Source: Streptomyces sp. PCS3-D2 (GTDB taxonomy: Bacteria > Actinomycetota > Actinomycetes > Streptomycetales > Streptomycetaceae). Taken from it: DNA of 64,000 nt. The notes under the pieces were generated by a model. That model worked only from the letters and a program-made list of their open reading frames with translations, was not told where the DNA came from and did no database searches. Each line of letters begins with the position of its first letter. Positions within the stretch are counted from its first letter, which is position 1. The stretch is taken from contig NZ_CP097800.1 in assembly GCF_000612545.2 (NCBI RefSeq), positions 310,001 to 374,000 of the forward strand. The letters are read 5' to 3'. The position numbers and the translations under genes are program-made. Below, in pieces: positions 1-14,954 of the stretch.

Positions 1-548
1 CGGGCGGTGTGCGCGGCGCGCAGCAGCTCGGCCTGGACGACGGCGCCGCCTGCGGTGACGCCCGCCGCCAGGGCTTCGGCCGCAGCGTGCCAGAGCGCGG
101 CCGCGGCGCCGAGCTGTGCCGGTGTGAGGGCCGCAACGGGCTCGGCGGTCGGGGCGGCGCCGGCGGCGGGCGGCGCCGCCTCGCGCGCTCCCGCGGCCAC
201 GGCACCGGCACCGGCGACGGCCGCGTCCGTGTCCGGTTCGGGCTTCGGCGGTACCGCGTCCGCGAGCGGGGCGGCGCCCAGGGCCGCGGCCCGGTGCAGG
301 CACCGGGGTGCCAGCAGGCACGTGCAGGTGGCCTGTCCGGCCTCGGTCACCGTCCCCGACGGGCCGGGGCGCAGGGTGACGAGGGCATCCGCACCGAACC
401 GGAAGGCGACGCTTCCGTCAGCTGCGCGGAGGGCGGCGTCCGCACAGCCGGCGGTGGCGTCGTCCAGCTTCTTGCGTAGCCGTGCCGTCAGGTTTTCGAC
501 CGCCTCGGCGAGTACCTCGGGTGCGACGGGCGGCAGTGCGGTGCTCAA
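1..548 (-). CDS. SWIM zinc-finger protein, 3' end beyond the window
   Basis: The last gene of the leftward operon; only its first ~182 codons are in the window. The frame is open throughout. About 75 residues in, a C-x-C-x(6)-C-x-H pattern (CTC, then CLH) fits the SWIM zinc-binding motif, usually a DNA- or protein-binding module. A low-complexity Ala/Pro-rich linker follows. No ATG or GTG sits at the right place. A TTG at 548-546 overlaps the TGA of the upstream VWA gene (547-545) as TTGA, with a GGGGAG ribosome site about 7 bases upstream, so I start it there. The coupling suggests stoichiometric expression with the VWA protein. E. coli YehQ, as I recall it, is a SWIM protein in a similar MoxR/VWA neighbourhood. 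The function is unknown. Confidence 0.8.
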   Translation of the reverse strand, partial: MSTALPPVAPEVLAEAVENLTARLRKKLDDATAGCADAALRAADGSVAFRFGADALVTLRPGPSGTVTEAGQATCTCLLAPRCLHRAAALGAAPLADAVPPKPEPDTDAAVAGAGAVAAGAREAAPPAAGAAPTAEPVAALTPAQLGAAAALWHAAAEALAAGVTAGGAVVQAELLRAAHTA

Positions 549-3500
549 CGGGACTCCCCACGGAGGCGGTCGCCCACCCAGCGGGCGAGGGCGAGAGGGC
601 TGAGGGCGGCCACCGGCATACCGGCCGCGACGAGTTGCCGGGCGACCGGGACCGAGTAGCGGGGGTGGCCCGTGTCGTCGAGCGCGGCGCAGCCCATCAG
701 GTGGGCACCGGAGGCGGCCAGCGCGCGGACCTCGCCGAGTAGGCCGCCGATCGGAGCGCCCTCCTCGAAGTCGCTGACCACGACGACGAGGGTGCGGCTG
801 GGGACGGTGATCAGGGAGCGGGCGTGGGCGAGACCGGCGGCGATGTGGGTGCCGCCGCCGACGCGCACCTCCAGCAACAGCGACAGCGGGTCCTCGACCC
901 GGTCGGTGAGGTCCACGACCTGGGTGGAAAAGGCGAGGAAGTGGGTGGACAGGGTGGGGACGCCACCCAGTACCGCCGCGGTCAGGGCCGACCAGATGAC
1001 GGAGGCCTCCATGGAGCCGGACACGTCGACCACCAGGACAAGCCGCCAGTCGGCCTCGCGGCTCGCCCGGGTGCTGAAGACGGGCCGCTCCGGCACGACG
1101 ACCACCGTGCCGTCGGCACGACGGCGGGCCTGTGCGAGGTTGGCGCGCAGGGTCCGGGCGAGGTCGAGCGCACCACCCGGGCGTCGGGTGGGACGGGGGG
1201 TGCTGAGCCCGGACAGGGACGGGCGCAGCCTGGTGGCGAGCTCTCGGGAGAGCTCGTCGACCAGCCTCTTCACCAGGGGCCGGAGACGGGCGAGTTGGGC
1301 CTCCGGCAGGCCGCCGGCGAGGGACAGTACGGAGCTCAGCAGTTCCACGGAGGGCCGTACGGCCGCCGGGTCGAGTTGGGCGAGCACGTCGGTGCGGCCC
1401 GCGTCGGCGGCACCGGCCAGGACTTCTTCCCGTACGTCGGCGCCGAACAGCGCTTCGAGCTCCTGCGACCATGCGCGGGCGGTCGGGAAGGAGGCCTCCT
1501 GGCCGCCGCCCCGGCCCGGCCCCCGGCCGGTGCCGAGGTCGCCGGCGCCTTCGCCGTGTCCCGTGCCGTACAGCTCGTCCAGTGCACGGGCATAACGGCG
1601 GGCGCCGGCGGGGAGCCGGTCGCGTTCGCGGCCGAGCAGCAGCCGCCAGCGGTCGGCCGGGGCGAGCCGGCGCTGCCCGGCGTCGGACCCGGAGGTCCGG
1701 ACGGGCGGTGCGCCGAGGGCGGCCGAGTCCGCGGCCGGGACCGCGGGCAGGGCCGCGGCCGGGTCCCGCGGCGGGGGCAGCGGGAGGGCCTTGAGTGCGG
1801 CGAGGCCCGCGGCATCGGCGGCGGCCCAGAGGCCGAGCAGGGCGGGCGGGGCGTCGAGCGCGAGGTCCACGCGGTCGCCGAGACGTTCGGTGACCGTGTC
1901 CAGCAGCCGGTCGCGGGCAGCCGGGGCGAGGGCGTCGAAGCCCCCGCGCAGGGCTGGGAGCCGGTCGAGGAAGTCCTGGTCGGCGAGGTGGTCGACGCGG
2001 TCGAGGAGCGGCGTGAGGGCGGCCGGGGAGGACTGCAGCAACGGGCCTGCGGCGGTGAGGAGTCCGGCGAGCCGGCGGGACAGCGCGCGGCGGCTGTCGG
2101 CGGTTCCGGCGCCGTCGATCCACCCGGCGGCGCGGTCGCCGAGCGCCCCGGCCGGGTCGAGGTCGAGGAGCACCCGGACGGCCTGGGCCGCGCCCTGCAT
2201 CAGCGGGGACGCGGAGGCGGCGAGGGCGGCGAGCGCGGCGTCCGTGCGCAGCCCCAGGTGATGGGCGGCGGCTCGGTCGGCGAGGGCCACGAGGGCGGCG
2301 GCGTCGGACGGCTGCTCGCTGCCGGCGAGGCCGGGCAGGGACCGCACGGCGGCGTCGAGGAGGTCGTCGGTGAGGGCGGCGCAAGCGGCGCGGGACGCGG
2401 CGGAGGTGCCGGGGAGGTGGCCGCGGTGCAGGGCTTCCAGGAGGTCGAGTGCGTCCAGGAGTTCGGGCAGGGCCGCCGTCTGCGGCAGGACGGTGGCCGC
2501 CTCGTGGAGGCGTACGTCGACCAGCTCGGGCAGATCGCACCGCGCGGCGGCGGCCAGACCGGTGAGGATCTGCGTCGGGGTCGGGCCGCCGTCGGCGGCG
2601 GCCCGGCGGGCGTCCTCGCCGAGCGTCCCCGCGGCCGCCTGGGCGGCGGTGACGCCGCGCACGCCGGTGAGGTCGAGCCGGGCCGGGACGGAAGGCGTCC
2701 AGGAGAGCCGCCATCTGGTGCCGAGGGCGGTGCCGTCCCCCGTGGCGGCGACGGTGAGGGGCTCTCCGTAGGCAGCCCCGCACACGAGGAGCCGCTGGAG
2801 GAGGACCTCGCGCCGGCCGTCGAGGGCGGAGCGGAGCGGGTCGAGGCGGATCTCGCGGGGCGCGGGATCCGCCGGGCACGGCAGGCGCAGCTCGGCGAGT
2901 TCGGCCTCGACGGAGGGGCCGAGGCCGGAGCGGGGGGCGTGCGGGGTGATCCGCCCGCGGCCGGTACCGACGAGCACGGCTTCGAGGGCCTGGGCCAGTG
3001 CCCGGCCGCGGCCGAGGGGTTCGCCCTGGCCGAGGACGGTGGTGACGGCCTCGACGAGTTCTCCGCGGCCGGGTGCGGGCAGCCCCCGCAGGACGGCGAG
3101 GTCGCAGGCGAGCCGCAGGGTCTCGGCGGCTTCGCCGGTCCCGGCGGTGTGTCCGGCCCGGCGGAGTTCCCGGCACAGGCCGGTGACGGCGTGCGAGGCT
3201 GCCTCCCTGAGCCGCTCGGGGTCGCCGCCGGCTTCGAGGACGGCCTGCTGCCAGAGCGGGTCGCGGATGCCGGCGGGGTAACCGGAGCGGGAGTCGAGCA
3301 GGTCGAAGGAGTACGGCACGAGGGAAGTGACGGCCGCTTCCCCGCCGCTCCCCCGCCCGGAGGCCTCGCCGACCGGGCCGCGGCCGGGGGTCGGGCGTCC
3401 GCCCGTCGCGGAGGGCCCTGCGGGAGGGGCGCCCGCGCCAGCGGCCGATCCCGGGCCGGTGCTGCCGCTCGGAGCGGTCCCCGAGCCGAGCGGCCCGGCG

Positions 3501-4417
3501 CCGCCGGGGGCGCCTTCCGTCCCGGTGGTGGAACCGGCTTCCGGGGCGGGTTCGCCCCCGGCGGCCGGCGCCGTGACGGCCGTGGAGTTGCCTTCGGGGC
3601 CGAGGAGGGCGGGGGCGTGGAAGGAGCCGATGACGGCGGCCACGCGCCGGCCGCCGGCGATGGCGCCGGCGATCACGGCGTGCATGTGGGCCTCGCGGGC
3701 GAGGTCCCGGGCAGGGACCGGGCCGTCCTCGCGCAGCGCCCAGCCGACGCCGAGCGCTGCGCGGCGTACGGCCTCCGGGCTGCAGCCCGGGGCGAGGACC
3801 TCGACGGCACGGTCCCACAGGTCGTCGCCGTCACGGCCCGTGCCCGCGGCGGTGAGGGCCGCGGCGAAACCGCCCGCGGGCCGCGGCGCGCCACCGGATT
3901 CCGCGGCCGTGTCCGTCCGGGTGGCCGTGCCCGTGGCCCGGACCGGGACCGTACGGGAGGCCGCGTTCGAGGTGGCGTCCGCCGCCCGGGGCGAAGCCTC
4001 GGGCACGGTGTCGGGCCGGTCTGCGGGTGAGGAGGGGTGCGGGACGGCGGGGCGGGGGGTCCAGCCGGGGTCGGACAGCGGGAGGTCGCAGCACAGGACG
4101 ACCGCGCCCGAACGGCGGGCCCAGCGGATCGCCGCCAGTTCCGGGGAGAAGTCCGCGAACGGGTAGAAGGCCAGGCGTCCGTCCTCGCCGCTGCCCGCGA
4201 GGGCGACGGGCGCGACGGTCTCCGGGTCCGCCAGGTGCTCCACCCAGTTCTGGAAGTCCGCCGGGAGCTCGACGCAGACCGCGTCCGCGCCGGATGCGTC
4301 CAGCAGGGCCGGTACCACCGCGGCCAGCGCGGGGCTGTGGTGCCGTACCCCGATCAGGAAGGGAGCGCGGGCCGCGGCGAGCCCATCGACCGCGGTCCGG
4401 GGGTCGGTGTGCGTCAA
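545..4417 (-). CDS. DUF5682-VWA fusion protein, partner of a MoxR ATPase
   Basis: A 1290-residue protein. The N-terminal ~150 residues (GVRHHSPA near residue 25, then CVELPADF) and later segments fit the DUF5682 family. The middle is Ala/Leu-rich helical sequence with low-complexity Gly/Ser/Pro insertions. Residues ~1120-1250 form a von Willebrand A domain with a full metal site: DVSGS, the Thr of GGGTH, and the Asp of VSDFEEG. VWA proteins paired with MoxR ATPases are usually cofactors or adaptors of chaperone-like complexes. I choose TTG at 4417-4415, because it overlaps the TGA of the MoxR gene (4416-4414) as TTGA, is preceded by GGGAG, and avoids the 40-base overlap that the upstream ATG (4453) would create. 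In E. coli the two halves would be separate genes (YehM and YehP); here they are fused. Confidence 0.85.
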   Translation of the reverse strand: MTHTDPRTAVDGLAAARAPFLIGVRHHSPALAAVVPALLDASGADAVCVELPADFQNWVEHLADPETVAPVALAGSGEDGRLAFYPFADFSPELAAIRWARRSGAVVLCCDLPLSDPGWTPRPAVPHPSSPADRPDTVPEASPRAADATSNAASRTVPVRATGTATRTDTAAESGGAPRPAGGFAAALTAAGTGRDGDDLWDRAVEVLAPGCSPEAVRRAALGVGWALREDGPVPARDLAREAHMHAVIAGAIAGGRRVAAVIGSFHAPALLGPEGNSTAVTAPAAGGEPAPEAGSTTGTEGAPGGAGPLGSGTAPSGSTGPGSAAGAGAPPAGPSATGGRPTPGRGPVGEASGRGSGGEAAVTSLVPYSFDLLDSRSGYPAGIRDPLWQQAVLEAGGDPERLREAASHAVTGLCRELRRAGHTAGTGEAAETLRLACDLAVLRGLPAPGRGELVEAVTTVLGQGEPLGRGRALAQALEAVLVGTGRGRITPHAPRSGLGPSVEAELAELRLPCPADPAPREIRLDPLRSALDGRREVLLQRLLVCGAAYGEPLTVAATGDGTALGTRWRLSWTPSVPARLDLTGVRGVTAAQAAAGTLGEDARRAAADGGPTPTQILTGLAAAARCDLPELVDVRLHEAATVLPQTAALPELLDALDLLEALHRGHLPGTSAASRAACAALTDDLLDAAVRSLPGLAGSEQPSDAAALVALADRAAAHHLGLRTDAALAALAASASPLMQGAAQAVRVLLDLDPAGALGDRAAGWIDGAGTADSRRALSRRLAGLLTAAGPLLQSSPAALTPLLDRVDHLADQDFLDRLPALRGGFDALAPAARDRLLDTVTERLGDRVDLALDAPPALLGLWAAADAAGLAALKALPLPPPRDPAAALPAVPAADSAALGAPPVRTSGSDAGQRRLAPADRWRLLLGRERDRLPAGARRYARALDELYGTGHGEGAGDLGTGRGPGRGGGQEASFPTARAWSQELEALFGADVREEVLAGAADAGRTDVLAQLDPAAVRPSVELLSSVLSLAGGLPEAQLARLRPLVKRLVDELSRELATRLRPSLSGLSTPRPTRRPGGALDLARTLRANLAQARRRADGTVVVVPERPVFSTRASREADWRLVLVVDVSGSMEASVIWSALTAAVLGGVPTLSTHFLAFSTQVVDLTDRVEDPLSLLLEVRVGGGTHIAAGLAHARSLITVPSRTLVVVVSDFEEGAPIGGLLGEVRALAASGAHLMGCAALDDTGHPRYSVPVARQLVAAGMPVAALSPLALARWVGDRLRGESR

Positions 4418-5571
4418 CGCAGGCTCCCGCGCAGGTCCCAGAGACGGCGCCACATCGCCGAGCCGTCCTCGGCCCGGCGCCGGACCGGGCCGTCCCAGTA
4501 GCCCAGCAGCCGTGCGTGGTCGGCGGGGTCGTCCTTGCGGACGACACCCAGCAGGTGCCCCGGCAGCAGGTCCAGCACGTCGCCGTCCGGCAGGTACGCG
4601 GCGGCGACCCCCAGGGAGGCCGCCACCTGCACGGCTTCGGCGGTGGACATGACCGTACCGGGGCGTTCCACGTCCCAGCCCTCGGCGGAACGTCCCGAGC
4701 GCAGGTCGCGGAAGACGGTGACGAGTGCGTCGAGCACCGCGTCGTCGACTCCGAAGGCGGCGCCGGCCCGCTGTACGGCGGCGACGGCCTGACGGCGGAT
4801 CAGTACCGCCTCCGCGTCCGCGTCGGCGATCGGGGCGACGGTCTCGAAGTTGAACCGCCGCTTGAGGGCGGCGGACATCTCGGAGACGCCGCGGTCGCGC
4901 AGGTTGGCGGTCGCGATGACGGTGAAGCCGGGGGCCGCGCAGACCACCGCGTCCTCCGTGGCGGTCAGTTCGGGCACGCTGACCCGGCGGTCCGACAGGA
5001 TCGAGACCAGGGCGTCCTGGACCTCAGGCAGGCAGCGGGTGATCTCCTCCACCCGGACCACGCGCCCGGTACGCATGGCGGAGAGGACCGGGGAGTCGAC
5101 CAGGGCCTGGGGGGTGGGGCCCTGCGCGAGCAGCAGCGCGTAGTTCCAGCCGTAACGGAAGGCGTCCTCGGTCGTGCCCGCGGTGCCCTGGACGGTGAGG
5201 GAACTGGTGCCGCAGACGGCGGCCGCGAGCAGTTCGGAGAGCATCGACTTGGCGGTGCCGGGCTCGCCCGTGAGGAGAAGTCCGCGCTCCCCGGCGAGGG
5301 TCACCACGCAGCGTTCCACCAGGGCGCGTTCACCGACGAACTTGGGCGTCACGGTGAGCTTGGCCGGGAGGCCGGCCCGGCGCCCGGGCAGGGTCAGTTC
5401 GGTTCCGTCGCTGCCGCAGACGAAGGTGACGACGGCGCGCGGGGTGAGTGCCCAGCCGGGCGGCCGGGGGCCGGAGTCGTGGGCGGCGAGGAAGGCGAGC
5501 TCGGCGGCATGGCGCTCCTCGGCGGGCAGCACCTGCCGGGCGGCGGGGGCGGATGGGGCGTTGACGGTCAT
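4414..5571 (-). CDS. MoxR-family AAA+ ATPase
   Basis: A 385-residue cytoplasmic ATPase. Walker A is GEPGTAKS at residues 102-109 and the Walker B region is VVRVEE at 171-176. The sensor segment (TVIATANLRD) and a C-terminal lid follow, the order typical of MoxR/AAA_5 proteins. Such ATPases remodel or metal-load protein complexes together with a VWA partner, and the gene directly downstream encodes one. I start at ATG 5571-5569 (MTVNAP) because AGAGGAAA lies 5 bases upstream; the 18-codon in-frame extension has no ribosome site. The stop overlaps the TTG start of the VWA gene. A strong hairpin lies between this gene and the giant gene upstream, so it may also have its own promoter. Confidence 0.9.
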   Translation of the reverse strand: MTVNAPSAPAARQVLPAEERHAAELAFLAAHDSGPRPPGWALTPRAVVTFVCGSDGTELTLPGRRAGLPAKLTVTPKFVGERALVERCVVTLAGERGLLLTGEPGTAKSMLSELLAAAVCGTSSLTVQGTAGTTEDAFRYGWNYALLLAQGPTPQALVDSPVLSAMRTGRVVRVEEITRCLPEVQDALVSILSDRRVSVPELTATEDAVVCAAPGFTVIATANLRDRGVSEMSAALKRRFNFETVAPIADADAEAVLIRRQAVAAVQRAGAAFGVDDAVLDALVTVFRDLRSGRSAEGWDVERPGTVMSTAEAVQVAASLGVAAAYLPDGDVLDLLPGHLLGVVRKDDPADHARLLGYWDGPVRRRAEDGSAMWRRLWDLRGSLR

Positions 5572-5607
5572 CGGGTTTCCTCTGCACGGGTACGAAAGGG
5601 GTGGTGC

Positions 5608-5652
5608 GGTGCCGGCGGGGCCCACCGGCGTCCGGTGGGCCCCGCCGGCACC
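5608..5652 (-). terminator. Perfect 21-bp hairpin inside the operon
   Basis: Bases 5608-5628 are exactly reverse-complementary to 5632-5652, with a 3-base loop (CGT). The hairpin lies in the only real gap (about 100 bases) of the otherwise overlapping leftward operon. No T-run follows, which is common for Streptomyces terminators. It could terminate or attenuate the DUF4132/giant transcript, or protect one mRNA segment, giving different dosage for the MoxR-VWA-SWIM half. Confidence 0.75.
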
Positions 5653-5673
5653 GGGGGTTCCGGGCCGGTCGGG

Positions 5674-8600
5674 TCAGCGGCGGCGGGTACGGGTGCGCTT
5701 CACCTTGAGCTCCTGCAGGCGCGGGACGTCGCCCTCACGGACCCGCCGCCAGGCCCGGCGGTAGAGCGCCGCGGCCGGTTCGGCGGGTGCCAGTACGCCC
5801 AGGAGCGGCCGGCCGGCGGGGGTGAGGTCGTACATCGGGAGCTTCCACTGCTCCACCGGCAGGGCCGGGGAGGCCAGGTCGGTCCAGGCGCCGGGCAGGA
5901 ACAGCGAGCGTCCGGCGCGGCTGCGGTCGGCGGACACCACCAGGTCGGTGGCGGCCAGTTCGGCTCGGGCGGCCTTGAGCCGGGCCGGCTTCCAGCCCGT
6001 CCACCGGGCGGTGTTGCGGTCGGTCGGGTCGGGCATGGCGAGCAGGGCCAGGTACAGGGCGGCCGCGTCCGCGCCCAGTCCGTACGCGGCGCGGACCTCC
6101 TCCACCAGCTCGGGCACCGAGCGGCTCGGGTCCTGCGGCCACCAGGTGCCGGCCGTGTCGGTCTCGCCGGCCGCGGGCGCGCCGGGGTCGGCGAGGAGTG
6201 CCGCGAAGCGCGGGTCGTGGGCGGTCCGCAGGGCCGTCTCGGCCGCGGTGGGCTGCTGGTCCTCGCCGCGCAGTGCCGGCAGGTGGGGGTCGGAGCCGGT
6301 GGAGTCCAGCAGCGCCGTCCGTACCGCGGGCCTGGGCTGGTCGTCGTGGGTGGCCATGACGACCGCGCCGTAGCGCTCGTAGCCCTCGCCGGTCTCGGTC
6401 GGGGCGCCGGCGACCTTCCGGAAGTGCGGAAGGCTCGTGTAGTGCGCGATCTCCAGGAGCAGTTCGGGCGAGGCGAGGCGCTGCCGTACGGCGGTCAGTG
6501 CGGGCGGCAGGACCGCCCGCACCGGGTCGCCGGCGGGCAGCCGGTGGGCCAGCCACGCGCTCATGGCCAGGGTCGCCATCAGGACCTGCGCGTCGAAGGG
6601 GTCGGTGGCGGCGACGGCGGGCTCCACGTGGTCGCCCTTGACGATCCACGGCACGTCGACGGAGAGCTCGCGCGCGGCGTCGGGGGCGAGCAGCGCCGCC
6701 AGCACGCGGTGGGCGGGCCGTCCGCCGCGGACGGCGCGTGCCGCCTCGGTGGCCAGCCAGTCGGGGACGGGGGTACGGCGGCCGACGTGCCGGTTCCACA
6801 CCTCCGCGGCGGCGGCCGCGTCGGGGCCCTCGCTCCACAGGCGTACCGGATCGGCGGGCAGCAGGGCCGCGACCACGGCGCGCCGGACGTCCGCGCCGAG
6901 GGCCTTGAGCTCGTCGCGGGCGCGGGCGGCGTCGGCGGCCTTGACGCCGAGGGCGGCGCGCACCTGCGCGGGCAGGAAGTTGCGGTCGTAGCTGTCGATG
7001 TGCGGGAGTCCCGCGATCACCAGGCGGGCGAGGGCGCCGGAGACCCCGGTGAGCCGGGAGAACTCCTCCGCTGCCTCCGGTCGGAAGGGCGCCGGGCCGT
7101 GCTCGGCGGCTGCGCCGAGGAAGGCGGTGAGCCAGCCGGGGTCCCGGTCGGGGTCGCCGAGGGGCGCCGTGCCGCGCACGGTGTAGGGGCCGGGGAGGGT
7201 GAAGCGGCCGGTGGGGTCGTGGAGGAGGGCGCCGAACTCGTGCCCGTCGGGCAGGGAGGTGCCGTACCCGGTCACCGCGAGGACGGCTCCGCCGCCGAGC
7301 GGCAGCAGGCTGCGGTGGTGGAGGTTGCGGTCGAGGCCGTCGGGGCCGCGCAGGTGGGCCTGGTCGAGGTGGGCCCGGACCTGGCGCCAGGCGCCGGCCG
7401 AGCCCTGTGCTGAGGCCATGCCGAGCGTGTCCACCTCGCCGAGGACGGTGAGGAGGGCGGCCCGCTGTACGTCGGTGGTCGTCGCGGCGACGGCCCGGTA
7501 GGCGGCGGCCGCGGGCCGGTCGAGCAGCGGCGTCCAGACGAAGTCGTAGTACGGCAGGCCGGGCGTGTCGAAGTGGAGCAGTCCGGGCACCACGGCGGCG
7601 TCGGTACCGGCGCGCGCGGCGCCGAGGAGGGTCAGGGTGTGGTGAGTGCCGTCGGTGTCACCGGCGTAGTGGTGGTGGGTGTGCTCCAGCAGCCCGCTGA
7701 GGGCTTCGCCGAGCAGTCGGTCGGCGGGTCCGGGCTCGCGGTCCGCTGCGGGTGCGGTGTCCGCGGCGAGCCGGGCGGCGATCCCGTCCAGGGCCTTCTG
7801 CTGGGTCAGGGCGAAGCGCAGGACCTCGACGATGCCGCCGATCAGCTTCGGATCGGTGACCTGCGGCAGGGCGGCGCTCACCAGGTCCGGCAGGTCGTCG
7901 GCCCTGGCCGCGGCGGCGGCCGCCTTCAGGAGGGCTCCGACGGTCTCGCGGTCGGCCGTGCGGAGCGCGGCCGAGCCCTGCGGGTCGCGGGGACGCAGCG
8001 CGTACCAGTGGGAGAGCGGCGGGAGGTCGACGCTGCCCGTGCCGAAGGGGGTGTCGTGGCGGTCCTGGCGGGTCTTGGCGGTGACGACGCCTTCGGGGTC
8101 GGTGAGAGCCAGTTCGCGCCAGCTGTGCGAGAGGGCGCGCGGCCGGTCGTCGCCCGGGAAGGTGAGGGCGGCCACCGGCTTGTTGCCGTCTTCGGGGACG
8201 GTGACGGTGCGTCCGGCCGTGTCGGTGCCGACCCAGCCGTTGCCGGGGAGGCGTACGGCGTGCCAGCCCAGGAGGCCGTCGGCGGGCGCGCCGAGCACGG
8301 AGCCCGCCACGGTGGGCGCGGGAAGCAGTCGGCTGGAGTGGCCGGACGAAGCGCTCCCGCCGTACGCCCTCGCGGTGTCGGCGAAGAACGCGGGCATGGA
8401 GGAGCGTCCACAGGCGCCGCTCGCCGGGTCGTACTCGAACCAGCCGCCCTCGTTGTCGTGGTCGCGCTGCCGCCACACCCAGTACGAGGTTCCGTCGGAC
8501 AGGACCGGTCGCTCGTCGGGCAGCCGGGTGTCGCCGCGGTACAGGACTCCGCCACCGGTGGTGCGTCCGCCGCCGGGCAGCGGGAGGGAGAGGTGGTCGC

Positions 8601-10590
8601 TGCGCAGGGACCAGTAGGTCCGGTCGGCGTCCAGGGTGAAGACGGTGGCGGGCGAGGAGTGCCAGTAGCCCTCGGTCCGGTGCGAGCTCCAGTCGGCCCA
8701 GAAGACGAGCAGCTCGCCGTCGACGTAATGGAACCCCGTGCGGCGGTGGGATCCAGCCGGGATGCGCAGGTCGTGCGTGAGGACGGTCGAGTCGGCGTCG
8801 ATGACGCGGACCTGGGCCGCGTTGGCGACGATCAGGTACGGCCAGGCCTCCACGACGGTGAGGCCGTGGCGGTCCCTGCCGGGGGTCAGTTCGCTGACGG
8901 CGCTCTCCCAGGCAGGCCAGGCCAGTTCCTCGAAGAGGCCGCCGCGCAGGGTGCGTGCGAGGGTTTCTCCCAGGTCGGTGGCGGCCGCGGCGGCGACCTC
9001 GTCGCGGGCCAGCAGCAGGGCCTCGGCGGGCAGCCAGGTCAGCCGGTCGATGGCGTCGGGGACCGCGGGCAGGCCTGCGGCAACGGAGGCGCGGGCGACC
9101 TCGCCCGTCCACTCGGCCAGCAGCGGGCGGGCGCCCGGCGAGGCGGCCACGCGGCGGACGACGTCGGTGCAGCCGCTGCCCAGGCTGTTCAGCGCCCGGC
9201 GGAAGGCCGGCTGGAAGCGCGGGTCCGCCGCCACCGCGGCCAGGTCGCGGCGCTCGTCGCGGTCGGACCAGTCCGACAGGTTCAGCGCGTCGTGGCGGTG
9301 CCGGGTGGTGTGGTCCTCGGGTGCGGCGACCGGGACGTCGAGGGTGAGAAGCAGGTCGAGGAGGTCGGCGTCCTGGACGCCGATGCGCAGGCCGCCCTCC
9401 CGCTCGGGCCGGGCGAGTTCGGCGCGCAGCTGCGGGGCGCAGCGCTCGACGACGTCGAGGAGGGCCGGGTGCGAGGGGCGGCGGCCCCAGCCGGAGTGGC
9501 GGGCGGCGTGGAAGCGCTCCAGCCAGCCGGAGGTGCCGTCGGTGCAGCGCTCCTCGTCGGGCAGGGTGGCGTCGGCCAGGCCGGCGGTGGCCCCGGACTC
9601 CTCCAGGACGTCCAGCCACAGGTCGGTGAGGTCGACGTCGCCGCCGGGCGGCGTCAGTGCCAGAAGTGTGCCGCGTACGGCGGGGATGCGGCGGGCGAGT
9701 GCGACGAGGGCGCCGCGGTGGGCCTTCCACCAGCCCAGCGCGGCGCGCAGGGTGGCGGGCAGGGGCAGCAGTTCGGCGAGGTAGTCCTGTTCGGGCTCGG
9801 TTCCGGTCAGGCCGGCGTTGCGGGCCAGGCGGCGCAGCTCGACGGCGGCCTGGGCGGAGGGCGGCAGGCCGCCCGCGGTGCGGCGTACGCACAGGCGGCG
9901 GAAGCGCTCGTATGCCTCGGCGGGACTGACCCGGCCCGCCAGGGCCTTGCCGTAGCCGGCGAGCACCTTCACCGGCAGGGCGCCGGCGAGCGCGAATTCG
10001 AGGAAGACGGAGTCGAGGCGGTCCTCGTCGACGGCCAGCCCGTAGCGGGCCTCGGCGGTACGGGCGCGGCCGAACAACTGGGCGGCGTAGGTGGTGTTCT
10101 CGACGCCGAGGAAGACGCGCGCGGCCTGCTCGTGGAAGAGGGGCAGGAAGTGCGGCACGGACGCGGCGAGGCGGTCGGCCAGTTCGGTGCACGCGTCGAG
10201 CGCGGCCTTGGGCTTGGTCTTGGCCTGGCGGGCGATCCGGTCGAGTTCGGGGACGACGGCGAGGGCGTGGTGTCCGTCCTCGGGGTGGTGCACGAGGACC
10301 CATTCGGGGAAGCCGAGTGCCTGGCGGCGGCTCAGGCCCACGACGGGCGGCTCGGCCTCGTCGCGTACCAGGCCCAGGAAGCCTGCGGCGAGGTCCTCGG
10401 CCGCGCCGAGTTCGGCGGCGGCGAGCCGGACGACGACGCGGCCCTCGTCGAGGCCCGGGTGCCGGTAGGTGCGAGCGGTCAGGTCGACGGCTCCGGCGCC
10501 CGCCCCGGTGGTGCCGTGGGGGAGGACCGCGCCGGCCTGCAGCAGCAGTTCGGTCTCGTTCGCCGCGGTGTCCTTCAGGTTCCTGCTCAT
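5674..10590 (-). CDS. Giant conserved protein (1638 aa) of the MoxR-VWA operon, function unknown
   Basis: The start (MSRNLK, ATG 10590-10588) overlaps the TGA of the DUF4132 gene as ATGA, so the in-frame 41-codon extension upstream is not used. I see no signal peptide, membrane helix, Walker motif or zinc motif. The first ~650 residues look helical and Leu/Ala-rich. A central part (~650-900) is rich in Trp, Tyr and Gly with short strand-like stretches (for example WVGTDTAG and YWVWRQRD), which suggests a beta-propeller-like or similar repeat fold. The rest returns to helical sequence, and the C-terminus is Arg/Lys-rich (KVKRTRTRRR), possibly binding nucleic acid. I do not recognise the family. 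The coupling to DUF4132 and the position before MoxR/VWA imply a scaffold or substrate role in the same complex. Confidence 0.8.
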   Translation of the reverse strand: MSRNLKDTAANETELLLQAGAVLPHGTTGAGAGAVDLTARTYRHPGLDEGRVVVRLAAAELGAAEDLAAGFLGLVRDEAEPPVVGLSRRQALGFPEWVLVHHPEDGHHALAVVPELDRIARQAKTKPKAALDACTELADRLAASVPHFLPLFHEQAARVFLGVENTTYAAQLFGRARTAEARYGLAVDEDRLDSVFLEFALAGALPVKVLAGYGKALAGRVSPAEAYERFRRLCVRRTAGGLPPSAQAAVELRRLARNAGLTGTEPEQDYLAELLPLPATLRAALGWWKAHRGALVALARRIPAVRGTLLALTPPGGDVDLTDLWLDVLEESGATAGLADATLPDEERCTDGTSGWLERFHAARHSGWGRRPSHPALLDVVERCAPQLRAELARPEREGGLRIGVQDADLLDLLLTLDVPVAAPEDHTTRHRHDALNLSDWSDRDERRDLAAVAADPRFQPAFRRALNSLGSGCTDVVRRVAASPGARPLLAEWTGEVARASVAAGLPAVPDAIDRLTWLPAEALLLARDEVAAAAATDLGETLARTLRGGLFEELAWPAWESAVSELTPGRDRHGLTVVEAWPYLIVANAAQVRVIDADSTVLTHDLRIPAGSHRRTGFHYVDGELLVFWADWSSHRTEGYWHSSPATVFTLDADRTYWSLRSDHLSLPLPGGGRTTGGGVLYRGDTRLPDERPVLSDGTSYWVWRQRDHDNEGGWFEYDPASGACGRSSMPAFFADTARAYGGSASSGHSSRLLPAPTVAGSVLGAPADGLLGWHAVRLPGNGWVGTDTAGRTVTVPEDGNKPVAALTFPGDDRPRALSHSWRELALTDPEGVVTAKTRQDRHDTPFGTGSVDLPPLSHWYALRPRDPQGSAALRTADRETVGALLKAAAAAARADDLPDLVSAALPQVTDPKLIGGIVEVLRFALTQQKALDGIAARLAADTAPAADREPGPADRLLGEALSGLLEHTHHHYAGDTDGTHHTLTLLGAARAGTDAAVVPGLLHFDTPGLPYYDFVWTPLLDRPAAAAYRAVAATTTDVQRAALLTVLGEVDTLGMASAQGSAGAWRQVRAHLDQAHLRGPDGLDRNLHHRSLLPLGGGAVLAVTGYGTSLPDGHEFGALLHDPTGRFTLPGPYTVRGTAPLGDPDRDPGWLTAFLGAAAEHGPAPFRPEAAEEFSRLTGVSGALARLVIAGLPHIDSYDRNFLPAQVRAALGVKAADAARARDELKALGADVRRAVVAALLPADPVRLWSEGPDAAAAAEVWNRHVGRRTPVPDWLATEAARAVRGGRPAHRVLAALLAPDAARELSVDVPWIVKGDHVEPAVAATDPFDAQVLMATLAMSAWLAHRLPAGDPVRAVLPPALTAVRQRLASPELLLEIAHYTSLPHFRKVAGAPTETGEGYERYGAVVMATHDDQPRPAVRTALLDSTGSDPHLPALRGEDQQPTAAETALRTAHDPRFAALLADPGAPAAGETDTAGTWWPQDPSRSVPELVEEVRAAYGLGADAAALYLALLAMPDPTDRNTARWTGWKPARLKAARAELAATDLVVSADRSRAGRSLFLPGAWTDLASPALPVEQWKLPMYDLTPAGRPLLGVLAPAEPAAALYRRAWRRVREGDVPRLQELKVKRTRTRRR

Positions 10591-11459
10591 GCGTCCCCGC
10601 CCTCCTCGATCTTGCGCCCGGCGTAGAGTGCCGCGGCCATGCGCATGCCCTCGGACCAGGCCACCGGTCCGACCTTGGTCAGCGGCAGCGCCCGGCCGTC
10701 CGCGTCGTGCCAACTCAGGGCGCCGGTGCTGGTCTCGTCGTCGTAGTAGGGCTCGCCGATCCAGACCGTCGCCTCCGTGCCGGTGCCGGCTCCGGCGTCG
10801 CGGACGCCGCAGGTGGCGTAGCCGCCGGAGACCCGGTAGCCGAGGGCGGTGGCGCGGGCGGCGAGGCTGAAGCGGGTGGGGAAGGCCCCGCCCGCGTAGT
10901 CGCGGACCTCGGTGGCCGTGGCGGCGACGTCGTGGGGCTTGCGCCAGGTGGCGCGGTGGATCTGCTCGACCTGCTGCACGATGCCCAGCTCGGCCGCGAA
11001 CTCCCGTACGTCGTCGAGGTCGGGCAGCAGTACGGGGTGGGGCAGGGTCACGGTGCGCGGGGAGAGCCGGACGGTCTCGCCGTCCAGGTTGACCACCTTC
11101 AGCTCACCGGCCGCGGTGGCGTCCCGCAGGAAGCCCACCTCGCCGGGGTCGTCGCCGACGACCGCCAGGTCGCGCAGGGCCTTCTGCCAGGCCTCGTCGG
11201 GCCAGACCCGGGCGAGCAGTTCGGTCGGCACGGGCAGCGAGGAGACCATCCAGGCGTCGACCTGGGCGACGCAGGCCGCCTCGTGCCGGTCGAGCCATTC
11301 GGCGAGCCGGCGCAGCCGGTCGACCTCGGGATGGTCCTTCAGCGCCTTCGGCAGTGTTTTCAACTGCCGTCCCGCCGCCCGGCCGGTGACGGACCTCGCC
11401 GCCACCCGCCCCTCCACCAGGGCGATCTCGTACCCCTCGCCCGCCGCCAGCCATGCCAT
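10587..11459 (-). CDS. DUF4132 domain protein
   Basis: The first gene of the leftward operon, 290 residues. The central part (residues ~75-175: PTELLARVW, LRDLAVVG, LPHPVLLPD, then an IVQQVEQIHR segment) resembles the C-terminal DUF4132 module known from E. coli YehI and MolR, whose biochemical role is unclear. It is much shorter than those proteins, so it is probably a stand-alone module. ATG 11459-11457 has a GGAGGGG ribosome site 9 bases upstream. The stop overlaps the next start (ATGA at 10590-10587). No signal peptide or membrane segment is visible. The neighbourhood (DUF4132, MoxR, VWA, SWIM) matches my recollection of the yehI-Q region, which supports the call. Confidence 0.75.
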   Translation of the reverse strand: MAWLAAGEGYEIALVEGRVAARSVTGRAAGRQLKTLPKALKDHPEVDRLRRLAEWLDRHEAACVAQVDAWMVSSLPVPTELLARVWPDEAWQKALRDLAVVGDDPGEVGFLRDATAAGELKVVNLDGETVRLSPRTVTLPHPVLLPDLDDVREFAAELGIVQQVEQIHRATWRKPHDVAATATEVRDYAGGAFPTRFSLAARATALGYRVSGGYATCGVRDAGAGTGTEATVWIGEPYYDDETSTGALSWHDADGRALPLTKVGPVAWSEGMRMAAALYAGRKIEEGGDA

Positions 11460-11656
11460 CAGACCGTGCCCCTCCGCCTGTCCGTACGTGTGCGCGCAGC
11501 CCTGACAGGGGGGTGCGAACCCCCTGAGCTGCGGATGTCGGGAGACTAGCGAGGGCCACTGACAACGGCCGTCGGAGGGGCACGCGGAGGTGGTTGTCCG
11601 GTTCTGGGTAGTCTTTCCCGGACAGTGGCGGAGCGGTATCGGCTCGTGGTGGGGTT
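11460..11656. other. Divergent intergenic region with a bulged hairpin
   Basis: This space separates the leftward MoxR-VWA operon from the rightward HNH gene and must hold both promoters. It contains a hairpin at 11496-11532: inner arms CAGGGGG (11506-11512) and CCCCCTG (11520-11526), and outer arms GCAGC and GCTGC with an asymmetric bulge. I could not assign -35 and -10 boxes with confidence. The hairpin would lie in the 5' region of the DUF4132 transcript. Confidence 0.5.
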
Positions 11657-12373: not shown

Positions 12374-12687
12374 CGGGGGCGGAGCACTGGCAGGATGACG
12401 TGCTCGCCGGACCGGGCGGAGCCATGACCGACGAGGTCGGCGTCGTCACCGGCCCGCTCACCCTGCGCACCACGGCCGCCGCCGGGGGCACGGTCCGGTT
12501 CGACGTCCAGTACAAGGACGCCGACGAGTGGTACACACTCACCGGCAGCCCCCGGCCCCACCACGGCGCCCCGGCCGCCCTGCACGCCGCGGCCCTCGCC
12601 GCGATCCGCGCGGGCGGCGCGGCCGAGGCGCCCGCCGCCGGCTCCGGAGGGGGCGGGGCCAGGCGGCTTCCGCCTACCGGAAGGTGA
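12370..12687 (+). CDS. Small hypothetical protein coupled to the HNH gene
   Basis: A 105-residue frame whose ATG (12370-12372) overlaps the TGA of the HNH gene as ATGA, a strong sign of a real, translationally coupled gene. Residues ~20-60 look like a compact beta-rich domain (PLTLRTT, TVRFDVQYKD, EWYTLTG), followed by an Ala/Gly-rich tail. No signal peptide or cysteine is visible, so unlike its partner it should stay in the cytoplasm. Its 3' end overlaps the convergent LPMO gene by 14 bases. I do not recognise the family. An immunity or regulatory role for the nuclease is possible but unsupported. Confidence 0.65.
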   Translation: MTGAEHWQDDVLAGPGGAMTDEVGVVTGPLTLRTTAAAGGTVRFDVQYKDADEWYTLTGSPRPHHGAPAALHAAALAAIRAGGAAEAPAAGSGGGGARRLPPTGR

Positions 12688-13417
12688 CGTCCGAGCAGGA
12701 GTAGAACGCTTCCTCGCTCTGGAAGGAGCCGTCGGGCCGCTTCAGCCCGTGCCAGATCGTGTAGATCAGGTGCTTGCCCTTCTTCTCGGGGAGCACCGCC
12801 CGGAACGTGAACGCCTTCGCGCCGAGGAATCCCGAGGGGGCCGCTGTGGCCGCGGTGTTGTCGGCGCTGAGGAAGGGCGTCTCCTCCAGGTCGGACCACT
12901 TCAGCGGCTTCTTCGGGTCGTAGCCGTCCTTGGTGACGTACATCTCCATGCGGTACGGGTTGTGCAGCGCGCTGATGTCGTAGCGGAGGTCGTACTCGGC
13001 GCCGCCGGGCAGCGTCGTCGAGGGGAAGTCGTCCCGGGCCAGGTCGAGGCCGGAGAACTGTGCGTTGCCGGCGCTGCACAGCTTGCCGTCGGGTATGCGG
13101 GCGCGGTGCTGCGGCGAGGAGGTGGGGGTGCTGTGGTCGATGGCGCGGCCCTGGACGATCGACTTCCAGTCGCCGGGGATGCCGGGGCTCTGGGCGAGGG
13201 CGAGTCGACAGGCCTCGCCGGCCTTCGGGTTCTTGGTGCAGGCCACGCTGCGGCTGACCGGGTCGGCGGTGGATCCGTGCGCGGAGGCGGGCGCGGAGCC
13301 GAGGGCGGTCACGGCGAGGGGGAGGGCCACGAGCGCGGTGAGGCGCAGGAAGGCGGTCCGGCGGGCCGGGAGCCGTGCCTGGTCGGGAGTGCTGGTGGCG
13401 GGGCGGGCCGTGGTCAT
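12674..13417 (-). CDS. Secreted AA10 lytic polysaccharide monooxygenase
   Basis: A 247-residue copper enzyme that oxidatively cleaves chitin or cellulose. The signal peptide ends at SAPASA, leaving His47 as the mature N-terminus, the first ligand of the copper histidine brace. The second is probably His152 (SALHNPYRMEMYVT). The C-terminus EAFYSCSDVTF is typical of AA10. No carbohydrate-binding module is attached; the co-oriented gene 60 bases upstream supplies CBM and FnIII domains and is probably in the same transcript. I start at ATG 13417-13415, because AGGAG lies about 10 bases upstream; the ATG seven codons earlier has no ribosome site. Confidence 0.9.
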   Translation of the reverse strand: MTTARPATSTPDQARLPARRTAFLRLTALVALPLAVTALGSAPASAHGSTADPVSRSVACTKNPKAGEACRLALAQSPGIPGDWKSIVQGRAIDHSTPTSSPQHRARIPDGKLCSAGNAQFSGLDLARDDFPSTTLPGGAEYDLRYDISALHNPYRMEMYVTKDGYDPKKPLKWSDLEETPFLSADNTAATAAPSGFLGAKAFTFRAVLPEKKGKHLIYTIWHGLKRPDGSFQSEEAFYSCSDVTFR

Positions 13418-13476
13418 GAGGGGGACGCTCCTGGTCATGAGTCGGTCGTGCGCGTGGGTCGGTGGTCGGCGGCCGG

Positions 13477-14829
13477 TCAGCCGGCTGTCTTCACGGTCAG
13501 CTCGCGGGAGAACGCGCCCCATGTGCCGTCGCCGAGCCGCGCCCGGATCTTCACGGTGTACGTCGTGCCGGGATGGGCGCCGACGAGCACCTCGCGCGAA
13601 CCCCTCGTCGTCGGTACGGGCAGCACCGGGTCGCCGGTGCCCCACATGAAGGTCTGGGCCGGCTTGCCGTTCAGGTAGACCTGGTAGGTGGTGATCTGGC
13701 CGACGCCCTGCGGGACGGACCAGGTGAGGTTCAGGTAGTGCTGGGTGACGGCGCCGTCCTGCTTCGTGGCGGTGGTGGCGGCGAGGTCGCCGGGGGCTGC
13801 GGTGCCGCCGTTGCCGTCGGGGGCCGCGGTGGTCGTCACCTGGGCTTCGCGGGTCGGGTCGGACTCCTTGCCGGAGGAGTCCACGGCGGTGACCTTGAAG
13901 CGGTAGGCGGTGCTCGCGGTCAGGCCGGAGACGGTGGCCGAGGTGGCCTTGGCGTCCGCCTCCTGGACCTTGGCACCGTTGCGGTAGATCCGGTAGCCGG
14001 TGACGGCGACGTCGTCGGTCGCCGCGCGCCACCGCAGGGCGACCTGGTACGGGCCGGAGGGCGCCGCCTCCAGGTCCGCGGGGATGACCGGCTTCGCCCT
14101 GTCCTGGCCGGGCGCCGCGTGCGTGGTGAGCACGATGTCCTTGCTGAAGCCGGTGGTGCGGCCGTCGGCGCGGACGGCGCGGACGGCGCGGACCGTGAAG
14201 GCGTAGCGGGTGGCGGGAGCCAGCCGCTCGATGTCGGTCATCGTGTCCTTGACGGTCTTGATCTGCTTGCCGTCCTGGAAGACCTCGTAGCGCACGATCT
14301 CGGCGCCACCGGCGGGCGGCTTCCACATCAGGTGGACGGCGGTGTCGTCCTTGACGAAGGAGCCGCCGTCCGCGGGGACGGCCGCGTTCGTGCCGGTGTC
14401 GCTGCCGCTGCCGCTGCCCGAAGGGCCGTTCACCTTGCATCCGGTGATCTTGGGTATGCCCTTGCCGGCGGGGTTGATACCGACCTTGACCACCCGGTTG
14501 CCGCTCCCGGCCAGGTCGGCGCGGTCGGCGACCGGCTTGACGGTGACGTGCCGGCCGGTCTGGCGGAGTTCGTACGCCCAGGGGTTGTCCAGGGTGACCT
14601 GCCCCTGCGACACGTCGAACTCGGCGGTCCAGTCCCGTACGGGCCGGTCCCCCTTGGTCGCCAGGGAGACCTCGCCGGTGGCCCACCACACGGTGGCCTG
14701 GTCAGCGACGCGGCAGGCGGCGTTGAGGCCGTTGTCCTCCTCTCCCGCGTTGGCGGCCACGGGGACGACGACGGAGCCGATCCCCACGACCGCGGCCGCA
14801 CAGGCCAGGGCAATTCGCTTTCGGGACAT
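13477..14829 (-). CDS. Secreted CBM2-like and fibronectin type III protein
   Basis: A 450-residue protein. A signal peptide (RKRIALACAAAVVG to VAANA, ~30 residues) is followed by a ~95-residue domain bounded by Cys residues (AACRVADQ to ITGC) with Trp-rich strands (ATVWWATGEV, DWTAEFDV), similar to CBM2-type cellulose/chitin-binding modules. Three fibronectin type III repeats follow (~145-245, ~255-345, ~355-450; note WKPPAGG, YRIYRNG, YQVYLNG). There is no catalytic domain. It probably binds polysaccharide and works with the LPMO encoded next downstream. The start MSRKR has AGAGG upstream (spacing ~7), so the 22-codon extension is unlikely. Confidence 0.85.
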   Translation of the reverse strand: MSRKRIALACAAAVVGIGSVVVPVAANAGEEDNGLNAACRVADQATVWWATGEVSLATKGDRPVRDWTAEFDVSQGQVTLDNPWAYELRQTGRHVTVKPVADRADLAGSGNRVVKVGINPAGKGIPKITGCKVNGPSGSGSGSDTGTNAAVPADGGSFVKDDTAVHLMWKPPAGGAEIVRYEVFQDGKQIKTVKDTMTDIERLAPATRYAFTVRAVRAVRADGRTTGFSKDIVLTTHAAPGQDRAKPVIPADLEAAPSGPYQVALRWRAATDDVAVTGYRIYRNGAKVQEADAKATSATVSGLTASTAYRFKVTAVDSSGKESDPTREAQVTTTAAPDGNGGTAAPGDLAATTATKQDGAVTQHYLNLTWSVPQGVGQITTYQVYLNGKPAQTFMWGTGDPVLPVPTTRGSREVLVGAHPGTTYTVKIRARLGDGTWGAFSRELTVKTAG

Positions 14830-14954
14830 CAGAAACCTCTTGGTAGAGCCGATCCGCCGGTGCAGCGGCGGTATCGGAAGTGCCTCGGTCAACACCCGTG
14901 ACCCTAAGCGCGGTTCGCGCCGCGACCGGGCCTCCGACGGGCTGCCGGGCGGCT

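Follow-up and report, generated by a model that had tools for sequence, protein, structure and literature searches.

MoxR AAA+ ATPases encoded beside von Willebrand factor A (vWA or VWA) proteins form ternary systems, amongst which a beta-propeller subsystem is defined in the relevant section of Kaur et al. 2020 (PMC7159879) by a vWA component that strictly carries a C-terminal beta-propeller; its P-loop is frequently GXXXTAKS, a form common to FtsH systems, and its third component combines tetratricopeptide repeats (TPR) with a propeller. A second point of reference is the Escherichia coli cluster of yehF (WGR), yehH (a pseudogene), yehI, yehK, yehL, yehM, yehP, and yehQ; in the open-access literature searched, two or more of yehL, yehM, yehP, and yehQ are named only in two papers, by title a genome announcement and a strain resource, and DUF5682, the family of YehM, is not named. 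On the regulatory side, the consensus tTGTCRgtg-8nt-TannnT marks promoters of a LexA/RecA-independent damage response in mycobacteria in the account given by PMC5656591, and a passage of the review PMC8223512 extends this promoter type to other Actinobacteria. The present analysis concerns an operon in a stretch of 64,000 nucleotides from Streptomyces sp. PCS3-D2 (the window; positions 310001-374000 of a 7.5-Mb contig), which encodes a DUF4132 protein, a 1638-residue protein called BIG here, a MoxR ATPase, a fusion of DUF5682 with a VWA domain, and a SWIM zinc-finger protein. The reading judged probable is that this window operon belongs, as predicted from its sequence, to the RecA/LexA-independent (PafBC) DNA-damage regulon, and that its products make up a single AAA+ remodelling complex. 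The strongest clue, a predicted DNA-damage promoter common to recA, polA, ruvC, and ung, had been missed in an earlier, sequence-only reading of the same DNA.

Promoter and layout of the operon

Open reading frames and Pfam matches place five genes in a run on the minus strand, behind the predicted promoter:

11543..11565, minus strand: predicted PafBC-type (RecA-independent) DNA-damage promoter, TTGTCAGTG-N8-TAGTCT, exact consensus match
10587..11459, minus strand: DUF4132 protein, first operon gene, 290 aa (Pfam PF13569, 102.9 bits)
5674..10590, minus strand: BIG, 1638 aa, no matching sequence family
4414..5571, minus strand: MoxR AAA+ ATPase, 385 aa (Pfam AAA_5, 122.9 bits)
545..4417, minus strand: DUF5682-VWA fusion, 1290 aa (DUF5682, 663.9 bits; VWA_CoxE, 209.7 bits)
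1..548, minus strand: N-terminal part of the SWIM zinc-finger protein, TTG start at 548, 627 aa in total

The sequence-only reading had described five consecutive leftward genes with 4-base overlaps at three of the four junctions, and the coordinates and overlaps were verified (ATGA at 10587-10590 between DUF4132 and BIG; TTGA at 4414-4417 between MoxR and DUF5682-VWA; TTGA at 545-548 between DUF5682-VWA and SWIM). All five genes that it placed within the window are real, with the correction that the SWIM gene extends beyond it, its 3' end lying 1335 bases outside the left edge.

The promoter sequence, TTGTCAGTGGCCCTCGCTAGTCT, lies 83 bases ahead of the DUF4132 start codon and is the only consensus match within the window (0 of 100 shuffles contained one). 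Its conservation was surveyed in 100 upstream regions (99 loci plus the window, with some genomes present twice), each included on the strength of a DUF4132 match of at least 150 bits starting at query residue 4 or earlier. The motif is exact in 65 of these regions and has one mismatch in another 22, and in 68 of these 87 upstream regions it lies 101-120 bases ahead of the start. Thinning the set to one region per cluster of BIG identity leaves the motif, with at most one mismatch, in 52 of 64 regions (below 80% identity), 22 of 33 (below 70%), and 11 of 17 (below 60%). Base-shuffled upstream regions gave no match in 2000, and random 300-base windows from the same loci gave 10 in 1000, some of which may be the damage promoters themselves. 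GAACNNNNGTTC is the actinobacterial LexA (SOS) consensus; it was found in 1 of the 100 upstream regions and not at all in the window, and LexA control of the window operon was rejected.

Other genes behind the same motif

Seven exact copies of the motif occur genome-wide (none for the reversed-pattern control), and the genes behind them are the window operon, recA, polA, ruvC, ung, and genes for a WGR protein and a DUF6412 protein. When one mismatch is allowed, 49 sites are found versus 5 for the reversed pattern. Twenty of the 42 one-mismatch sites, hand-picked rather than random, were examined; 17 are soon followed by a frame of at least 100 codons, and 10 of these 17 frames were scanned. 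Nine of the ten match DNA-transaction families (UvrB, UvrC, a UvrD-type helicase, DnaX, and AlkZ-like, RadA-like, exonuclease III-like, SNF2, and RecD2-like proteins), the names RadA-like and exonuclease III-like being our interpretation of the domains, and one is without a family. Exact sites stand ahead of recA, polA, ruvC, and ung and one-mismatch sites ahead of uvrB and uvrC. The predicted regulon resembles the mycobacterial PafBC (RecA-NDp) regulon in its promoter consensus and in having recA as a target; a difference is that the passages on the mycobacterial regulon in PMC5656591 and PMC8223512 list no MoxR-VWA operon amongst its members.

The second Pup-ligase match in the genome is followed, at distances of 2.1 and 3.2 kb, by two adjacent WYL matches; they are presumably pafB and pafC, names given from their position in the expected place beside pafA. 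The WGR protein behind one of the exact promoter copies (L168:2178-3632; G000:C1, about 5785700-5787130) also has a propeller-like part, and yehF likewise encodes a WGR protein.

The genome carries, in addition, a core MoxR-DUF5682-VWA operon of the genus (G000:C1, about 2984200-2989000), from which a DUF5691 gene diverges. The core and window operons are alike in the order of MoxR, DUF5682, and VWA and in having a similar damage-type promoter, and they differ in that the core operon has DUF5682 and VWA unfused, lacks BIG, and has the DUF5691 protein nearby. Upstream of the core operon, TTGTCAGTG-N8-CAnnnT was found in 29 of 30 same-genus genomes, the remaining one having two mismatches (41 loci were surveyed in all, one of which, without MoxR in range, was not counted). 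At one locus (L005:13049-16310), one-mismatch damage promoters face both ways between the core MoxR operon and the DUF5691 block on the other strand. No SWIM protein for the core system was found by phmmer within the 19.5-kb core locus. Opposite the core MoxR gene, a divergently oriented frame of 485 aa has no family and a low-complexity look, and is probably not a gene as listed.

The five proteins

BIG had been called an unrecognised giant protein, a description that held up: a Pfam scan up to an E-value of 10 found no family, the comparison with PDB sequences matched no characterised family, and NCBIfam gave a single chance row (E 0.39). The structure prediction recommended in the sequence-only reading was made as two half-protein AlphaFold2 models (mean predicted local distance difference test scores of 88.9 for residues 1-870 and 90.1 for residues 845-1638), which were compared with a limited list of folds. 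The models predict that BIG contains a helical solenoid, a beta-propeller, and a winged helix, encoded as follows:

8971..10302, minus strand: BIG residues 97-540, predicted helical solenoid, TPR-like (AlphaFold2 model)
7981..8949, minus strand: BIG residues 548-870, predicted beta-propeller (AlphaFold2 model)
5728..6123, minus strand: BIG residues 1490-1621, predicted winged helix (AlphaFold2 model)

The predicted winged-helix region ranks with the most strongly conserved stretches of BIG. Two possible origins of BIG were considered and set aside: that it is the split-off N-terminus of YehI (no hhalign match) and that its C-terminal half is a relative of DUF5691 (no profile match), neither result being conclusive because YehI and DUF5691 were each represented by a single sequence.

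The MoxR protein carries the P-loop variant GEPGTAKS, which is identical in YehL; GxPGTAKS is kept in 94 of 94 relatives, and the core-operon copy has GVPGTAKT. The fusion protein combines the DUF5682 motifs GxRHHxP, ExP, RExxM, and GxxHxP in its N-terminal part with a C-terminal VWA domain that carries a metal-ion-dependent adhesion site (MIDAS). Counted by regular expressions on open frames, some of which are cut by contig ends, the GxRHH motif is present in 93 of 93 relatives and the MIDAS motif in 84 of 93, and 82 of 93 have the GxxHxPA site further along DUF5682. The conserved sites of DUF5682, seen as conserved alignment columns, are common to YehM and the core-operon copy. Similar paired GxxH and Glu motifs occur in TIKI/TraB/EreA-type hydrolases, to which the N-terminal part of DUF5682 may be related; a profile search of PDB sequences for this relationship gave no match and a literature search gave no useful result, which leaves it a lead. 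The SWIM protein scores slightly below the Pfam cut-off (18.8 versus 19.6) and contains the CxC...CxH motif, which is found in 81 of 85 relatives.

Conservation and linkage of the five genes

BIG was matched in 28 of 61 relatives and DUF5682 in 48 of 61. Linkage was followed in two overlapping sets of loci, with at least three contigs, judging by their length, common to both. The first comprises 22 loci with DUF4132 and BIG, of which 19 contain all five genes; the exceptions lack a SWIM match (L045), reach a contig end (L049), or lack MoxR and all that follows despite 10 kb of sequence (L054). The 4-base overlap between DUF4132 and BIG is present at all 22. For the second set, a scan of genome contigs yielded 507 relatives, and the 80 best matches (79 loci) were retained. 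A neighbourhood survey had been proposed as the check on linkage of the five families elsewhere, and they are indeed found together at 66 of these 79 best loci, with 11 more loci reaching the end of the sequence, one apparently broken (L117), and one consisting of an orphan BIG (L104). Since the second set consists of best matches, the five-gene linkage applies to near relatives. The sequence-only reading had named two refuting outcomes, families unlinked elsewhere and a giant protein from an unrelated, well-characterised family, and neither was observed. Immediately upstream of the orphan BIG gene, in Streptomyces sp. BR123 (L104:9841), lies the damage promoter with one mismatch.

Across the phylum, full-profile matches to BIG are rare (7 of 296 genomes including the source genome, with two candidates scored per genome), and the named top relatives are Streptomyces, with up to 87% identity in the best segment. 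BIG is also the component that multiplies: Actinocorallia populi has four full-length copies of it, and one further genome has a pair of which the second is partial; these multiple copies stand at the operon (L132 and L061). Near full-length BIG is encoded on five Streptomyces plasmids of 0.85-1.27 Mb (NZ_CP108277.1 and four others), and both plasmids inspected contain the complete five-gene set, the S. atratus copy adjoining an IS110 transposase gene. Five divergent BIG-like frames of 1412-2039 codons were also observed (L056-L060), one of them in the source genome (L060, near G000:C1:52079-55903); the partner families were not found in the surrounding 20 kb, nor was a damage-promoter match found directly upstream.

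Comparison with described systems

The resemblance to the E. coli yehI-yehQ region that the sequence-only reading had pointed out is borne out by the order of the families, since DUF4132 (YehI), MoxR (YehL), DUF5682 (YehM), VWA (YehP), and SWIM (YehQ) follow one another as in the window, and the last four define the yehL-M-P-Q type of system. The E. coli cluster differs in lacking a BIG gene (there is no profile match between BIG and YehI) and in having separate YehM and YehP proteins in place of the fusion. DUF4132, a stand-alone protein in the window, ends the 1210-residue YehI in E. coli, where the Pfam domain occupies residues 954-1138, near the C-terminal end. Both clusters have a damage-type operator at their head, a presumed one in E. 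coli, but the predicted regulators differ, being PafBC for the window operon and LexA for the yeh cluster: CTGGATAAAATTACAG, positioned 9 bases ahead of yehF, the head of the cluster, is taken to be the LexA box published for molR. MolR is cited as a LexA regulon member in a passage of PMC8533742, which also describes Deinococcus drA0165-drA0166 as up upon DdrO depletion, with DUF4132 in DRA0166. A report that mentions DUF4132 in E. coli ST131 (PMC9334617) was set aside, since the passage concerned is about a transposon insertion site.

With MoxR-vWA ternary systems in general, the window operon shares a MoxR ATPase encoded beside a vWA protein. With the beta-propeller subsystem it shares, in addition to this core, the GXXXTAKS P-loop. 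BIG is a candidate for the third component, its predicted TPR-like solenoid and propeller having been matched with modest Z-scores and no sequence match. The operon nevertheless falls outside the published subsystem, because its vWA protein lacks a C-terminal propeller (VWA_CoxE ends at residue 1293 of a 1302-residue frame) and its bpMoxR score of 20.9 bits is below the Pfam cut-off of 27; it further differs by adding DUF5682, SWIM, and DUF4132 proteins. It may work in a manner like that of the beta-propeller subsystem.

Proposed function

Support for one ATP-driven remodelling complex comes from the stability of the five-gene set in near relatives, from the fusion, and from what is known of the MoxR-vWA family through PMC7159879. 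The 4-base overlaps and the P-loop variant kept in 94 of 94 relatives also support a single complex, and the promoter speaks for a use of this complex after DNA damage. That fusion and tight coupling point to one complex had been suggested from the sequence, and it remains probable. In the proposed mechanism, PafBC, activated by DNA damage, would switch the operon on at the predicted promoter. As is typical of the family, MoxR would assemble into an ATP-driven hexameric ring, with the VWA domain fused to DUF5682 as its metal-dependent adaptor, gripping a client peptide, and the conserved His/Glu-rich site of DUF5682 may be a hydrolase or client-binding site. Judging from the predicted folds, BIG would be a large scaffold that uses its solenoid, propeller, and winged helix and, together with the SWIM and DUF4132 proteins, would recruit the motor to damaged DNA or to protein-DNA complexes that have stalled; ATP hydrolysis might then pull such complexes apart or remodel them, aiding recovery. 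We infer, rather than observe, both the purpose of the complex (repair, replication recovery, defence, or controlled death) and its client.

A broader proposal, held more tentatively and falling somewhat short of probable, is that DUF4132, MoxR, DUF5682, VWA, and SWIM proteins form a conserved damage-response machine placed under unrelated damage regulators in different phyla (PafBC in Streptomyces, LexA in E. coli, and, for DUF4132, perhaps DdrO in Deinococcus). In this proposal BIG would be a new DNA-directed scaffold by which the MoxR ring is aimed at protein-DNA complexes that are damaged or stalled. The shared damage promoter would give a little-understood family, its E. coli members included, a directly testable role in the damage response.

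Several observations weigh against the proposed regulation and mechanism. At least two mismatches to the promoter are present in 13 of the 100 related upstream regions, the core operon has CAnnnT instead of TAnnnT as its -10 element, and in a second family none of 10 core operons has the motif (4 to 6 mismatches each). An initial search in S. venezuelae reported in a passage of PMC9380542 did not find the mycobacterial PafBC motif, and the occurrence of the motif in the present Streptomyces-type genome speaks to the question left by that report. The fold matches of BIG have modest Z-scores (4.6-9.3), and phmmer at 1e-5 found no match between the DUF4132 protein and YehI or between the SWIM protein and YehQ; these two pairs are tied by Pfam domain only. 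For E. coli, the loose LexA pattern is expected 0.49 times in the yeh stretch and was present in 76 of 200 shuffles, CTGT-N8-ACAG has no match in the yehI-yehQ stretch, and for Deinococcus the proposed likeness of drA0165-drA0166 is through DUF4132. Finally, induction of the operon by damage is a prediction from its promoter, and damage-controlled transcription by itself does not show a repair role.

Amongst the alternatives, the one that survives best, while still unlikely, is a defence (anti-phage or abortive) system for which the damage promoter serves as an alarm, such that a phage damages DNA and the machine hits the invader or kills the cell. MoxR-vWA systems have been proposed as conflict systems (PMC7159879) and other vWA-MoxR systems were found near CRISPR loci (PMC10910872), and the patchy occurrence of the operon amongst relatives (BIG being matched less often than DUF5682), its presence on large plasmids, and the multiplication of BIG would fit such a role. 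Against this, the Pfam scan found no recognisable effector domain in the five proteins, PADLOC returned no credible match in the operon (the sole match being MoxR against an REase profile, E 0.051), the gene set is stable in the near relatives examined, with no effector swapping of the kind described for conflict systems, and the promoter is common to core repair genes. The conflict role that the sequence-only reading had entertained has no direct evidence in its favour, although the PADLOC result is compatible with a defence system of a kind not yet described.

Considerably less probable is that the complex acts in enzyme maturation, as a chaperone of the chelatase or CoxD-CoxE type; it would equip a client enzyme with a metal or cofactor and be in greater demand after DNA damage. 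The VWA domain does score best to VWA_CoxE, MoxR matches the Mg-chelatase family weakly in Pfam, and the core locus has frames nearby that encode a B12-binding domain and an ATP-grasp CoA-ligase; however, no client enzyme was seen within the operon, and such a chaperone would leave the predicted winged helix of BIG and the promoter common to repair genes unexplained. That TTGTCRGTG-N8-TAnnnT is a general promoter whose DNA-damage link is coincidental is very improbable, because, although the evidence base is just seven exact sites and ten one-mismatch targets and the gene behind one exact site encodes a DUF6412 protein without a known role, five of the six other exact sites precede recA, polA, ruvC, ung, and the WGR gene and nine of the ten scanned targets match DNA-transaction families.

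Other features of the locus

Two further sequence elements lie within the operon region:

11506..11526, minus strand: inverted repeat CAGGGG-N9-CCCCTG, between the promoter and DUF4132
5607..5653, minus strand: perfect 22-bp hairpin in the gap between BIG and MoxR

The inverted repeat, with at most one mismatch, is found in 35 of the 100 related upstream regions versus 8 of 1000 random 130-base windows, a comparison to be read with the pattern having been picked after its sighting in the same upstream regions; it is possibly a second regulatory element. The hairpin occupies the sole gap of the operon, the 102-base junction between BIG and MoxR, where it may act as a partial terminator or an mRNA processing site, so that the downstream mRNA would be lowered or processed. 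Upstream of the operon, at 12674-14895, overlapping frames encode a lytic polysaccharide mono-oxygenase domain and fibronectin III repeats, which are unrelated to the operon.

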